DNA from: Oscillospiraceae bacterium
GTDB taxonomy: Bacteria > Bacillota > Clostridia > Oscillospirales > Ruminococcaceae
Direction of reading: 5' to 3'
DNA: 48,983 bases
NCBI GenBank assembly: GCA_018434245.1
Contig: JAHDPQ010000010.1
Location: forward strand, 1-48,983
Below the pieces are notes generated by a model. It had not been told where the DNA came from. It was given only the letters and a program-made list of their open reading frames with translations, and made no database searches. Positions within the stretch are counted from its first letter, which is position 1. Each line of letters opens with the position of its first letter. Shown here in pieces: positions 1 to 30,654 of this stretch. A program made the position numbers and the translations under genes.

Positions 1-926
1 ACCAGATGTACGGCGTTGCGCAACAGCTCCTGCAATCCCTCGTAAGTGTTGGAGGTGTCGTACCCCACAAATTCTCGGGTAGAACCAAAGAGCACGTTTC
101 CCTTATGAGATTGGGTAAGGGAAATGCCAACCCCCAGCTTTGCCATGGCAGAATGGTCGTTTTCCAGTGTTTCTGGGTGGTGCTTGGCTACGATATAGCG
201 GGCATTGAGGGTGCATTTGTGGACAAAGGGAGCCACTGCCTCGGTGATGTAGATTTGCCCCCGGCGGGGCCGGATGGGAAGCTTCAGCCCAACCGTTTCC
301 GCCAGCAGGGGAGACCACGCTCCCGCCGCGTTGACTACCACCGGGGCATGAAAATTTCCCTTGGGAGTTTTGACGCCGACCACCCGCCCGTTTTGAGTGA
401 GCAGGCTTTCCGCCGGTGTATAGGGGTGAATTTCCGCTCCCCGGGCAGCGGCACCCTCCAAATATCCCAGATTCAGCTGGAAGGGGTTTACTTCCCCGTC
501 TACAGGACAATGAGTGGCCGCCACAATGGCCTCTGAGTTCAGCCCCGGCTGCAGCTTTAACGCGTCCTGTACCGAGACAAGCTCTACATCCAGCCCTCTT
601 TCCCGCTGCTGAGCCACCACCCCTTCCATGGTCTCAAGCTCCAAGGGTGTTTCAATAAGCACCATGCCGCCCTTTTGCACATATTCAATATCACGGTTTA
701 GATCCCGGGCCAGCTGTTTATAAAGCTCCACACTGGCAAGAGCCAGAGTCAGGTGCTCGTTGGGGGCCTTGGATTGGGGGATTACCATCTGATCGCAGGA
801 ACCGCTGGCCCCCGAGCTAAAGTAGTTGCGCTCCAGCAGGACAACCTTTTTGCCCCGCAGGCTCAGATAGTAGGCTGCAGCACTTCCGATGACGCCGCCC
901 CCTACAATGATCACATCGGCGCTCAT
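1..926 (-). CDS. FAD-dependent amino/imino acid oxidoreductase, DAO family (3' end beyond window)
   Basis: The visible 308 residues start with an ADVIIVGGGVIGSAAAYYL-type Rossmann motif that binds FAD, followed by features of the DAO family (glycine, sarcosine, D-amino acid and proline dehydrogenases, including HcnC and LhpB-like subunits). It would oxidise an amino or imino acid, passing electrons to the iron-sulfur proteins encoded just upstream. The ATG overlaps the stop of the BFD-like gene (ATGA), so the two are translationally coupled. The reading frame is still open at base 1, so the C-terminus, including part of the catalytic domain, is missing from view. The family is clear; the substrate is not. 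Confidence 0.9.
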   Translation of the reverse strand, partial: MSADVIIVGGGVIGSAAAYYLSLRGKKVVLLERNYFSSGASGSCDQMVIPQSKAPNEHLTLALASVELYKQLARDLNRDIEYVQKGGMVLIETPLELETMEGVVAQQRERGLDVELVSVQDALKLQPGLNSEAIVAATHCPVDGEVNPFQLNLGYLEGAAARGAEIHPYTPAESLLTQNGRVVGVKTPKGNFHAPVVVNAAGAWSPLLAETVGLKLPIRPRRGQIYITEAVAPFVHKCTLNARYIVAKHHPETLENDHSAMAKLGVGISLTQSHKGNVLFGSTREFVGYDTSNTYEGLQELLRNAVHL

Positions 927-9485: not shown

Positions 9486-11366
9486 ATGGATTCCAAACGA
9501 TTTTCTTATGAAGTGTTTCGCAAATACTTCATCACCGTGCTCTCTGTGTTTACCGGCCTTTTGCACATTGGTAACTTTACCTTTCTCCCCATGGAGAGCA
9601 TCAAGTTCTTTGCATGGCACCTGATGCTGGGACTTGTCTTTGTATTTCTGTATACACCCACCAGTAAAAAAAATCCCAAAGCCTGGCTTTGGCTGGACTG
9701 GCTGTGCATTCTACTCACCATGGTGGTGGGAATCTACGTTATCTTTAGCTACAACCAGTACGTTGTGATGATGCAGACCAACAGCATGACAAAAATTTTA
9801 TATGTATTTGGTTTGATCACCACCCTGCTGGTGCTGGAAGCCGCTCGCCGGGTGCTGGGACTGGTGCTGCCCCTAATTGCAGTGATCACCATTCTCTATG
9901 CCCTGTACGGCAGCAACCTGCCCGGACTGCTGGGCCACAGAGGCTACAGCTTTGCCCGGGTAGTCACCACCATCTTTAGTGATCAGGGCGTCTACGGCAC
10001 ACCCATTGGAGTTTCCGCTTCCAACGTGTATCTATTCCTGCTGTTTGCAGCGTTTCTGGCGGCTTCCGGCGCTGATGAGATTTTCCAGAACATCGCCATT
10101 GCCCTGACCGGACGCAAGCGGGGCGGCCCCGCCAAAATGGCTGTTGTGGCCAGTGCCCTGTTTGGAAGCATCTCGGGCAGCGCTGTGGCCAACGTGGTCA
10201 GCACCGGCGCCTTTACCATTCCCCTGATGAAGCAGCAGGGCTACAAGAAGCGCTTTGCAGGCGCGGTGGAAGCCGTAGCCTCTACCGGCGGGCAGATTAT
10301 GCCTCCCATCATGGGGGCGGCAGCCTTTGTGCTGTCCGACATTTCTGGTACTCCCTACGCCACCGTCTGCCTTGCGGCACTGCTTCCGGCGATGATGTAC
10401 TATCTCACCCTGTTTAAGATGGTGGACCTGGAATCGGTGAAGTACAATCTTCAGGGTGTGCCGGAGGATCAGCTTCCCAACCTGAAGGAATCTCTGCGCA
10501 GTGCCTTTAAGCTGTTTATTCCCCTAGCTATTCTGCTATTCCTCCTGCTGGTGGTTCAGACTACCCCCATGCTGGCCGCTATCTGGTCCATGCTGGCCAT
10601 TGTCATCTGTGGTATACTGGACAAACAGGACCGCCTGACTCTGGACGGTATTCTGAATGGCTTTGTGGAGGGCAGCAAGGGCTTGACACAGGTGGTTTCT
10701 GCCTGTGCCTGTGCCGGAATTGTCACCGGTATGTTTGCCCTGACCGGCCTGGGCCTTAAGTTCTCCGACTTTGTGGTGAGATTGGGCGGTTCCTCTATTT
10801 TGCTCAGCCTGCTGCTTTCCATGGTGGTGTGCGTCATTTTGGGTATGGGACTTCCCACCACGGCATCTTACATCATCTGCGCCACCGCCATTGCGCCTGC
10901 GCTGATTAAAATTGGTGTACCCACTCTGGCGGCTCACCTGTTCTTGCTCTACTTTGCCTGTATCTCTGCCATTACCCCTCCTGTGGCGGTGGCGTCCTAC
11001 GCTGCCTCCAGTATCGCGGAGGAAAACGCTCTCAAGGTGGGAACCACCGCTGTCAAACTGGGAATCGCGGGCTTTGTGCTGCCTTTTACCTTTGCACTCA
11101 ACCCCGATTATCTCCACTTTGGACTGGATCTGACCACACTGTGCACCTGGATTTCTGCCGTTACCGTTTGCTATGCGGTGGCCATTGCTATTCAGGGTTA
11201 TGTGGAACAAAAGATCACGGTGGTGGAACGGCTGCTGTATCTGGTGGTTGTTGCTACAGCCATCCAATCCGATTTCCTCCTTTCCGTCTTTGGCTGGACC
11301 TTGTTTGCCGGACTGTACTTCTTCCGGGTTCGTCAGGCCAAACGCGCTACGGTACAAGGCGCATAA
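9486..11366 (+). CDS. TRAP transporter fused permease, 4TM/12TM (TAXI-associated)
   Basis: A 626-residue polytopic membrane protein made of an N-terminal DctQ-like four-helix part (about residues 1-140) fused to a DctM-like part with the hallmark segments AKMAVVASALFGSISGSAVANV and MGLPTTASYIICAT. The fused form is typical of TAXI systems. It imports the ligand captured by the upstream receptor using an ion gradient. The ATG at 9486, 6 bases after TAGGAGTG, is preferred to an upstream GTG that lies in the hairpin. It ends the rightward operon; a strong inverted repeat follows. Confidence 0.93.
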   Translation: MDSKRFSYEVFRKYFITVLSVFTGLLHIGNFTFLPMESIKFFAWHLMLGLVFVFLYTPTSKKNPKAWLWLDWLCILLTMVVGIYVIFSYNQYVVMMQTNSMTKILYVFGLITTLLVLEAARRVLGLVLPLIAVITILYALYGSNLPGLLGHRGYSFARVVTTIFSDQGVYGTPIGVSASNVYLFLLFAAFLAASGADEIFQNIAIALTGRKRGGPAKMAVVASALFGSISGSAVANVVSTGAFTIPLMKQQGYKKRFAGAVEAVASTGGQIMPPIMGAAAFVLSDISGTPYATVCLAALLPAMMYYLTLFKMVDLESVKYNLQGVPEDQLPNLKESLRSAFKLFIPLAILLFLLLVVQTTPMLAAIWSMLAIVICGILDKQDRLTLDGILNGFVEGSKGLTQVVSACACAGIVTGMFALTGLGLKFSDFVVRLGGSSILLSLLLSMVVCVILGMGLPTTASYIICATAIAPALIKIGVPTLAAHLFLLYFACISAITPPVAVASYAASSIAEENALKVGTTAVKLGIAGFVLPFTFALNPDYLHFGLDLTTLCTWISAVTVCYAVAIAIQGYVEQKITVVERLLYLVVVATAIQSDFLLSVFGWTLFAGLYFFRVRQAKRATVQGA

Positions 11367-19062: not shown

Positions 19063-19110
19063 TCCGTTAAAGATCTCATTAAAATTTACACTTCTGTAAA
19101 ACAGAAATAC

Positions 19111-19139
19111 TTGTCACCTGTCTAAAAAGCTGGTAAAAT
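19111..19139 (+). promoter_or_regulatory. Sigma-A promoter of hflK-hflC
   Basis: TTGTCA, 17 bases, TAAAAT. The start point would lie near 19146, giving a leader of about 25 bases that contains the TAAGGAG ribosome binding site. Confidence 0.65.
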
Positions 19140-19170
19140 ATTGACATTATGAATGGTAAGGAGACGACTC

Positions 19171-29090: not shown

Positions 29091-29127
29091 AAGAGCTGTC
29101 CTCACGCTGGGGGGACAGCTCTTTCTT
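29091..29127 (+). terminator. Intrinsic terminator of the ABC operon
   Basis: An 11-bp stem AAGAGCTGTCC/GGACAGCTCTT is followed by TCTTATAT, 10 bases after the permease stop. Confidence 0.8.
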
Positions 29128-29151: not shown

Positions 29152-29180
29152 TTTACAGGGCAGGGGGATTATGCTACAAT
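29152..29180 (+). promoter_or_regulatory. Sigma-A promoter of the pheA leader
   Basis: TTTACA, exactly 17 bases, TACAAT. Transcription would begin near 29187, 45 bases before the leader peptide start and about 330 before pheA. Confidence 0.7.
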
Positions 29181-29231
29181 GTGACACAATCTCAGACTCA
29201 GTTTGCACGGAGCAGATTAAGAGGTGCCGTG

Positions 29232-29330
29232 ATGGTATACGCTGTTACTTTAGTCGGCTACGTTTTCTTTTTTAGCTTTACCGGCTTTGGAAAGGGTAAG
29301 GCTTATTTGCGTTTGGCCGACAGGGATTGA
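29232..29330 (+). CDS. Phe-rich leader peptide of pheA (attenuation control)
   Basis: A 32-codon ORF with GAGGTG 7 bases before its ATG. The product has five Phe and three Tyr, including YVFFFSFTGF at residues 10-19 (Phe codons at 29265-29273, 29277 and 29286). It lies between a consensus promoter and a strong terminator, directly ahead of the phenylalanine-biosynthesis gene. Phe-codon run, short length, position and overlapping RNA pairings all fit a leader peptide whose translation senses charged tRNA-Phe. It may have no function as a protein. A tiny membrane protein is the alternative. Confidence 0.75.
   Translation: MVYAVTLVGYVFFFSFTGFGKGKAYLRLADRD
29253..29328 (+). promoter_or_regulatory. 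Attenuator segments 1 and 2 of the pheA leader
   Basis: Segment 1 (29253-29259, GTCGGCT) pairs over 7 bp with 29315-29321 (GGCCGAC), one pair a G-U. Segment 2 (29316-29328) can instead pair over 11 bp, with two single-base bulges, with the left arm of the terminator (29365-29375), forming an antiterminator. A ribosome stalled at the Phe codons would cover segment 1 and free segment 2; one reaching the stop codon at 29328-29330 would cover segment 2 and let the terminator form. Confidence 0.65.
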
Positions 29331-29364
29331 TGCTCCGCACTAAAATGCAACCGCTGCATGTGGG

Positions 29365-29397
29365 AGTCCCGTGGCAAACGCCATGGGACTCTTTTTT
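29365..29397 (+). terminator. Attenuator terminator upstream of pheA
   Basis: AGTCCCGTGGC (29365-29375), loop AAAC, GCCATGGGACT (29380-29390), one G-U pair in 11, followed by CTTTTTTAT. It is 118 bases before pheA and 35 after the leader peptide stop, so full termination would silence pheA unless the antiterminator forms. Confidence 0.85.
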
Positions 29398-29514
29398 ATG
29401 GCGGAACCCTGCCAATACAATCAGAACATACAATGGTGACGGCTCTGAATATACCACCGGAGGAAATAAAACGGCGCAAGGTGTGCATCCTGTCATCAGA
29501 AAGGGGAAGATTCC

Positions 29515-30654
29515 ATGGAATTGCAAGATCTGCGCATGAAAATTGATCAGGTAGACACCCAGCTTACCGATTTGTTCTGTCGGCGTATGGAGCTTTGCTC
29601 TCAAGTGGCAAAGCATAAAAAGGGCCAGGGCAAGATGATTCTGGATAGAACCCGGGAGCGGGAGATTCTGGCCCGGGTGGGCAGGCAGGCGGGGGAGGAG
29701 CTGGACCTATATGCCCGGATGCTCTATGGGGTTCTGCTGGATTTGAGCAAAGCCTACCAGAGGAGCTTTTATCACAACGAGAGTCAGCTGTCCCAAAAGA
29801 TTCGGCAGGCTGCCGCCGAAAACCGGCCGTTTCCCCGCCGGGGTACCGTGGCCTGTCAGGGGGTGGAGGGAGCCTACTCCCAAATCGCCTGCGACAAGCT
29901 GTTCCCTATGCCCGACATCACCTACTGTTGGGATTTTGAAGGAGTCTTTCAGGCGGTGGAGCAGGGACGCTGCGACTTTGGCATCCTGCCTATCGAAAAT
30001 AGCTCCAACGGCTCGGTCAACCGAGTGTACGATCTGATGCACCGCTATCAGTTCCACATTGTGCGCAGCATTCGGCTCCACATCGACCACAACCTTCTGG
30101 CAAAGCCAGGGGTGCAGTTCTCGGAACTTAAGGAAATCTACTCCCACGAGCAGGCGCTAGGCCAATGCCGGGATTTTTTAAACCAGCACCCCCATATCAA
30201 GATCATCCCCTGCGAAAATACCGCCGTGGCCGCCAAGCTGGTAGCCGAATCGGACCGCAGGGACATTGCCGCTCTGTCCTCCCGCAACTGCGCCGGACTC
30301 TACGGTTTGCAGGTGCTGTCCCACCGGATTCAAAACAGCGAGAACAACTACACCCGCTTTATCTGCATCGCCAAGGATTTGGCCATCTATCCCGGCGCAG
30401 ACCGAATCAGCCTGATGCTCTCGGTGGAGCACACCCCTGGTGCTCTCTACCATATGCTTGCCAAATTTTCGGCTTTGGGGCTGAATTTAACCAAGCTGGA
30501 AAGCCGCCCCATTGCAGGGCGGGACTTTGAATTCCTGTTCTATTTTGACTTGGAAGCCTCCGTCTGGTCCGAGGATGTCATACGCCTGCTGGGGGAATGT
30601 TCCACCCGCGAGCAGCTCTTTGTATTCCTTGGAAGCTACAGTGAGGTGCGATAG
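29515..30654 (+). CDS. pheA: Bifunctional chorismate mutase / prephenate dehydratase (P-protein)
   Basis: A 379-residue enzyme making phenylpyruvate from chorismate. Residues 1-85 are an AroQ-type chorismate mutase (LRMKIDQVDTQLTDLFCRRM, with a C-terminal helical end); residues about 110-285 a prephenate dehydratase (GVEGAYSQIAC, LPIENSSNGSV, NYTRFICIA, where TRF is the catalytic motif); residues about 298-375 an ACT domain (EHTPGALYHMLAKF, KLESRPI) that binds phenylalanine for feedback inhibition. The ATG follows AAGGGGAAG by 7 bases. A Phe-rich leader peptide and terminator upstream suggest transcription attenuation. No other aromatic pathway genes are adjacent. Confidence 0.95.
   Translation: MELQDLRMKIDQVDTQLTDLFCRRMELCSQVAKHKKGQGKMILDRTREREILARVGRQAGEELDLYARMLYGVLLDLSKAYQRSFYHNESQLSQKIRQAAAENRPFPRRGTVACQGVEGAYSQIACDKLFPMPDITYCWDFEGVFQAVEQGRCDFGILPIENSSNGSVNRVYDLMHRYQFHIVRSIRLHIDHNLLAKPGVQFSELKEIYSHEQALGQCRDFLNQHPHIKIIPCENTAVAAKLVAESDRRDIAALSSRNCAGLYGLQVLSHRIQNSENNYTRFICIAKDLAIYPGADRISLMLSVEHTPGALYHMLAKFSALGLNLTKLESRPIAGRDFEFLFYFDLEASVWSEDVIRLLGECSTREQLFVFLGSYSEVR

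Follow-up and report, generated by a model that had tools for sequence, protein, structure and literature searches.

A putative ribosome-mediated attenuator with a phenylalanine-rich leader peptide upstream of pheA, and a patchily distributed family of related leaders

The leader of about 330 nt that lies upstream of pheA in the window (the whole stretch of 48,983 nucleotides analysed here) is, we propose, a ribosome-mediated transcription attenuator that follows the trpL/pheL logic and senses charged tRNA-Phe, a reading to which we assign a probability of roughly 0.92. Judged from its sequence, it belongs to a patchily distributed family of such switches, in which a conserved RNA and conserved codons stand mostly before the gene for the enzyme with which the synthesis of aromatic amino acids begins. 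The class of mechanism is already known, Firmicutes included; the family itself is named in no source that we found. The versions at pheA (Phe-biased), at tyrA (Tyr-biased) and at aroF (mixed) make codon specificity testable on a single scaffold.

Organization of the leader

The elements, all on the forward (+) strand, are the following.

29152..29180, +: sigma-70-type promoter, TTTACA-17-TACAAT with TG before the -10 hexamer; same hexamers and spacing in the sister loci L031 and L032
29220..29225, +: Shine-Dalgarno-like AGAGGT of the leader ORF, 6 nt upstream of the ATG, read from sequence
29232..29330, +: leader ORF of 32 codons, peptide MVYAVTLVGYVFFFSFTGFGKGKAYLRLADRD followed by a stop
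29253..29263, +: segment 1 (GUCGGCUACGU), partner of segment 2; two-sided change in L032
29274..29303, +: hairpin P inside the ORF, 9 bp, arms AGCUUUACC (29274-29282) and GGUAAGGCU (29295-29303); apical part of the 1:2 domain
29309..29326, +: segment 2 (GCGUUUGGCCGACAGGGA), partner of segment 1 or segment 3
29366..29381, +: segment 3 (GUCCCGUGGCAAACGC), antiterminator partner of segment 2
29362..29397, +: intrinsic terminator (3:4), 14-bp stem at 29362-29393 and U run to 29397
29515..30654, +: pheA, 379 aa, chorismate mutase (CM_2, PF01817) - prephenate dehydratase (PDT, PF00800)

An earlier note on this DNA, made from the letters, had described the promoter, the 32-codon Phe-rich ORF with its ribosome-binding site, an intrinsic terminator before pheA and the complementarity of segments 1 and 2, and all four are present; the TG before the -10 hexamer is an addition, and the gene it had called pheA carries both expected domains. 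Segments 1 and 2 are complementary through GUCGGC (29253-29258) and GCCGAC (29316-29321). The proposed complementarity between segment 2 and the left arm of the terminator is likewise real but extends beyond the 11 bp claimed: 29309-29326 pairs with 29366-29381 over 14-15 bp with small bulges, and segment 3 overlaps both the 5′ arm and the loop of the terminator. The leader stop codon, which the note had placed inside segment 2, is in fact at 29328-29330, just 3′ of it, and the 9-bp hairpin P had been overlooked.

Mutually exclusive 1:2, 2:3 and 3:4 pairings, as expected of an attenuator, are thus all present, as is an ORF with a Shine-Dalgarno-like site whose translation is predicted. The control codons, five Phe codons at 29265, 29268, 29271, 29277 and 29286 (29265-29288), are positioned between segment 1 and segment 2. 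The 218-nt leader has a folding z of -4.36, with none of 200 shuffles as good. The gene upstream, which has FtsX and MacB_PCD domains, extends to 29080, and a terminator-like stem comes next (29091-29123); between 24962 and 29080 lie an ORF resembling an ABC-type ATPase, a long ORF that looks secreted and this FtsX/MacB-type permease, the permease being the one that was domain-scanned.

Folding in three ribosome states and the proposed mechanism

Growing transcripts were folded in three states, with no ribosome, with a ribosome on a Phe codon and with a ribosome at the stop codon, under an assumed start site and an assumed footprint that forbids pairing up to 11 nt past the first A-site base. 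The classical 1:2 / 2:3 / 3:4 logic invoked by the earlier note emerges in all three outcomes. Free of ribosomes, the transcript keeps about 11 expected pairs of 1:2 throughout, 2:3 reaches at most 3.3 and 3:4 forms. A ribosome whose A site holds a Phe codon (29265 or 29277) rules out 1:2; in transcripts that stop at 29382-29384 the expected pairs number about 14 for 2:3 and 0-0.3 for 3:4, and from 29386 onwards 3:4 can compete. With the ribosome at the stop codon, 3:4 is the sole pairing formed. In equilibrium terms, the fold that contains 3:4 is favoured by about 6 kcal/mol over one in which 2:3 is forced (-44.2 versus -38.2), and the full-length transcript with a stalled ribosome still folds to 3:4; the 2:3 antiterminator would therefore have to be trapped kinetically. 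Kinetic antitermination is accepted for trp attenuation.

We propose the following course of events. Transcription would start near 29187, as we infer, and a ribosome would begin the leader ORF. When Phe-tRNA is scarce, the ribosome would stall on the Phe codons at 29265-29288, cover segment 1 and open the 1:2 domain, and segment 2 could then pair with segment 3 while the latter is being transcribed and segment 4 has yet to be made; with 2:3 formed, no terminator would arise and pheA would be transcribed. When Phe-tRNA is plentiful, the ribosome would reach the stop codon at 29328 and cover segment 2, and 3:4 would terminate transcription; after release of the ribosome, 1:2 with hairpin P would re-form, again with termination by 3:4. 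In the relatives described below, DAHP synthase genes would be under the control of this cassette in a version with mixed Phe/Tyr codons. Pure Phe sensing is uncertain, since the leader ORF also has three Tyr codons (29238, 29259 and 29304).

Attenuation of this kind needs a ribosome close behind RNA polymerase, and the leader would therefore be a natural test of transcription-translation coupling in Firmicutes. Uncoupling of the two has been reported for B. subtilis (PMC7858274) and, if true of the window's lineage, would work against the mechanism.

Hairpin P may be no more than the tip of 1:2, or it may be a pause element. A pause consensus is matched just after P at 6/6 positions in 9 of 69 aligned members, the window included, and at four or more positions in 52 of the 69, which is only a hint because some of these positions are fixed by the helix itself.

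Sister genomes and other pheA loci

In two sister genomes, whose PheA proteins are 94% and 84% identical to that of the window, the promoter, the ORF, the segments and the terminator are kept before pheA. Segments 1 and 2 change together in one of them (L032), from GUCGGC/GCCGAC to GUCAGC/GCUGAC. The earlier note had made its reading depend on the retention of Phe codons and paired arms among relatives, and both are retained.

A leader placed directly at pheA was found in three sister genomes only, the window's own included. The final model, run over 100 pheA loci (L004-L103), gave two matches, the sisters L031 and L032. By eye, no such leader stands right before pheA at eleven further loci (L033-L043), ten of which seem, again by eye, to have the end of an aroC-like frame before pheA. 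Two of the eight same-genus genomes in the family scan were matched (the window's own and G004), which points to a patchy distribution. The conserved DNA pattern occurs in one copy in the window's genome, at the pheA leader; the model's other match in the window (19091-19144) was taken as chance at E = 0.42.

A family of related leaders

A blastn search with the leader against 396 genomes of the bacterial family matched 20 at E <= 0.01. Five of these carry leaders (the window's own genome, G004, G075, G016 and G341), three of them in other genera and each of those three before a DAHP synthase; nine of the other 15 were examined, and nothing leader-like was seen among the matches listed. The preference of the relatives for DAHP synthase could not have been visible to the earlier note from the window alone.

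A first covariance model was built from six leaders and covers a 59-nt core, hairpin P plus segment 2, with the terminator left out. Across the bacterial family it matched 41 of 396 genomes at E <= 0.1, in 27 of 126 genera, giving 44 rows. Thirty were inspected, 24 judged true and six judged false by eye (L151, L152, L158, L159, L160 and L161), and L205 was added as true, so that the inspection covers 31 of the 44 rows; the other 13 are weak, and L207 repeats L160. Across the order, 44 of 394 genomes were matched at E <= 0.01, in 27 of 169 genera, and 42 of the 45 rows, the window's among them, were judged true by eye and three false (L151, L203 and L204); the true members fall in 12 families besides the window's own, 13 in all. 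In the class, the first model matched seven of 342 genomes at E <= 0.005, four of them true, and a second model, built from 69 members, matched 12 of 332 at E <= 0.01, seven of them true by eye. Five class members lie in four families outside the order (L208, L209, L212, L213 and L215); the class matches L210, L211, L214, L216 and L217 were judged false by eye. Acceptance of a member was a judgement by eye that weighed its peptide, its terminator and its downstream gene jointly, and these three features are therefore not wholly independent of it.

Conservation and covariation

An intrinsic terminator follows the core by 27-67 nt in 66 of 67 members, the remaining one being cut by the contig end. 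In 66 of 66, a pairing of 9-17 bp joins segment 2 to the terminator's 5′ arm and loop. The mean energy of the 2:3 duplex is -17.7 kcal/mol, compared with -10.0 kcal/mol for shuffled terminator arms. When partners were permuted among 56 non-redundant members, the cognate total for 2:3 was -983 versus -669 (sd 22) and that for 1:2 was -867 versus -647 (sd 20), with 0 of 2000 permutations as good in either case. The cognate partner was within the best tenth for 34 of the 56 members in 2:3 and for 30 in 1:2; in some members, for example L136, L141, L142, L167, L201 and L202, 1:2 was no better than many shuffles.

The 2:3 pairing was also examined in a fixed register, over 64 distinct rows and with bulges excluded. 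Paired cells made up 73.9% (66.1% in shuffles, 0/500 as high; 29-46% in slid registers), and doubly changed cells numbered 62, compared with 30.4 in shuffles (0/500), while the numbers of doubly changed pairs (331/500) and of pair types (91/500) were not above those of shuffles. Bulges shift the register, which makes this test weaker than the one on duplexes. Hairpin P, in 66 distinct rows of an alignment fitted to the covariance model, has 98.5% of its cells paired, compared with 90.6% in shuffles and 29-63% when slid; doubly changed cells number 62 versus 19 (0/500), and five of the nine pairs are doubly changed, compared with 4.0 in shuffles (135/500).

The reading frame is conserved as well. 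A Shine-Dalgarno-like stretch (loosely defined, 4-5 nt) precedes the chosen start in 66 of 67 leaders, a figure to be read with the fact that this stretch was a criterion in choosing the starts; the exception, L195, is mis-framed. Upstream of the core, the frame holds no stop in 536 codons (eight codons in each of 67 leaders), and Phe plus Tyr make up 19.6% of its codons compared with 6.5% and 12.3% in the other two frames; at least two Phe or Tyr codons are found among the upstream eight in 40 of the 67 leaders and fewer in the other 27. Inside the core, Phe richness is partly by construction, because the first model contains Phe codons.

Downstream genes and codon content

Sixty-six downstream ORFs were scanned with Pfam; left out were L132 (the sister pheA, where the automatic choice took a wrong frame), L182 (no ORF long enough downstream) and L205 (contig edge). 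Fifty-nine of the 66 are DAHP synthases, with matches to DAHP_synth_1 and to the DAHP synthase ferredoxin-like domain, two are pheA, one is aroB and one is tyrA. The other three are taken to be L154, with a convergent gene, and L167 and L196, where a wrong frame was picked and DAHP-synthase-like starts are visible in other frames. DAHP-synthase-like starts are also seen by eye downstream of L212, L213 and L215.

In G016 the leader heads what we take to be an aroF-aroB-aroA-aroC-pheA operon, and in G042 presumably aroF-tyrA-aroB-aroA-aroC-pheA, the gene names being read partly from translations. It thus heads a pathway operon in these genomes and stands before pheA alone in the window's clade, a pair of arrangements from which the direction of change would have to be inferred. 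No PF00793 DAHP synthase was found in the window's genome, listed as 91.12% complete, which suggests that the enzyme has been lost, has been replaced or is missing from the draft; aroC is located elsewhere in that genome, away from the pheA leader.

Over 67 leader peptides, one of them mis-framed, Phe makes up 17.5% of residues, Tyr 10.7% and Trp 0.3%. The pheA leaders are Phe-biased (F5Y3, F6Y2 and F6Y0), and L192, before a tyrA that follows no DAHP synthase, is Tyr-biased (F2Y7); it is from these three related pheA leaders and one tyrA leader that we suggest a tuning of codons to the regulated gene. A bolder and rather doubtful extension is that the cassette is old and order-wide, integrates charged tRNA-Phe and tRNA-Tyr, has been retuned in its codons at pheA and tyrA relative to the aroF operon, and uses hairpin P to hold RNA polymerase near the leader ribosome. 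In the host phylum, transcription is thought to outrun translation.

Several single loci deserve mention. G526 has two copies of the cassette, L242 (G526:C17, core 10128-10183) and that represented by L195 and L243 (G526:C50): one copy is a Tyr-rich leader (MISRLLAATYYYLGFVYYYDKAYLRFAADTV) that precedes a tyrA standing apart from other aro genes, the other a mixed Phe/Tyr leader with a DAHP-synthase-like ORF downstream. L205 (G365:C73:16-74, minus strand) is a second leader, Phe-rich (F8 Y2), with its downstream gene past the contig end, in a genome that already has L141 before DAHP synthase. After the leader and terminator of L154 (G366) comes a transporter-like ORF in convergent orientation, with no aromatic gene in view, and the locus is possibly an orphaned attenuator; the similar L153 has a DAHP-synthase-like ORF in that position. 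L157 (G355) stands before aroB and then an aroC-like ORF, instead of DAHP synthase. Hairpin P is extended, to about 12 pairs by eye, in L182 (G561, core 342-398, minus strand), where the ORF stops inside it; an FMN riboswitch is matched at 621-740 of the same locus.

Other explanations

The conservation of the core peptide over many genera of the order could also mean that the nascent chain itself, FSF(T/A)..F.GKA, stalls the ribosome in the manner of TnaC, in response to free Phe or Tyr or to another signal, with the same 2:3/3:4 readout. The conserved residues, however, fall on the arms of hairpin P and on segment 2, which covary as RNA, and the balance of Phe and Tyr suits the regulated gene in four leaders, three at pheA and one at tyrA. 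Moreover, the ORFs of L147, L176, L182 and L183 end within or right after P and yet P, segment 2 and the terminator are kept, which favours a constraint on the RNA and disfavours an arrest peptide; we regard such a peptide as improbable.

The pheA copy might instead be a relic of a broken-up aro operon that no longer regulates anything. Most relatives of the leader do stand before DAHP synthase, and the window's genome has no PF00793 DAHP synthase, both of which would suit a relic; but all elements are intact in the three sister genomes, where one pair has changed on both sides, and the Phe-biased codons fit pheA, leaving this explanation slightly less credible still. Least credible is a riboswitch or protein-binding RNA with hairpin P as its sensor and an incidental ORF: P is kept in 98.5% of cells and no Rfam family explains the leader, but P, one hairpin whose loop varies in length, is no aptamer-like fold, and the 536 upstream codons of 67 leaders, accepted partly on their peptide, hold no stop and lie in the frame richer in Phe and Tyr.

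Relation to known systems

Attenuation through a leader peptide is the textbook mechanism of Gram-negative bacteria, and in Firmicutes the T-box is the expected regulator of such genes. The leader proposed here shares with enterobacterial pheL-pheA (and with trpL and hisL) a Phe-rich leader peptide, a 2:3 antiterminator, a 3:4 terminator and the same regulated gene, and its control codons likewise fall in the 5′ side of 1:2. It differs in the covarying hairpin inside the ORF and in the phylum, and its relatives stand mostly before DAHP synthase and have mixed Phe/Tyr codons.

With Rfam 15 at gathering score the window gave no matches, T-box (RF00230) and Phe leader-type families included, in agreement with the earlier note, which had seen no T-box at the leader. 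Five loci (L112, L113, L114, L116 and L032) searched up to E = 1 gave no leader family, and 17 further loci at gathering score gave FMN and tRNA only. A T-box, a riboswitch or another Rfam family was rejected on these searches as the identity of the leader.

Ribosome-mediated attenuation has been either reported or predicted in this T-box-rich phylum for hisS/hisZ in bacilli (PMC2965389), for hisZ in Clostridium difficile as well as lysQ in Lactococcus (both cited in PMC4833913) and, with a Leu-rich peptide, for ilv-leu in Staphylococcus aureus (PMC5794164). Those attenuators, compared here by description only, concern other amino acids and genes. As late as 2010, the occurrence of regular leader peptides in Firmicutes was still put forward as something noticeable (PMC2965389).

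Two sets of candidate uORFs come closer in subject. uORFC-13-1, described from 24 representatives in Acholeplasma and environmental sequences (Brewer 2021, PMC8632094), is a uORF that lies before aroF, contains one Phe codon or more, is accompanied by a terminator and is proposed to act by attenuation; it was compared with the present family by description, not by consensus. Two candidate uORFs with Phe and Tyr codons at shikimate genes are shown in Fig. 6b of Stav 2019 (PMC6429828) and come from among alphaproteobacterium HIMB5, Clostridium novyi, Thermovirga lienii, Arcobacter and Baumannia; they too were compared by description, and overlap with the present family is possible. In a full-text literature search, a scope that leaves supplements and most subscription papers aside, we recognised no paper that describes or names the family.

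The window's genome does have T-box matches elsewhere, ten to RF00230 at E <= 0.001, six of them above the cut-off. Among the downstream genes viewed (eight, seven of them domain-scanned), those after matches above the cut-off are pheS, tyrS, a tryptophanase-family gene and two acyl-CoA ligase-like genes, and those after matches below it are thrS and cysE. A T-box is a tRNA-binding leader, whereas the sensor of the pheA leader would be its ORF. We infer that this bacterium senses charged tRNA-Phe in two ways, by a T-box for the synthetase and by the ribosome for pheA. One T-box match (L237, C121:34093-34350) precedes the gene of the tryptophanase/tyrosine phenol-lyase family, a target that seems unusual.
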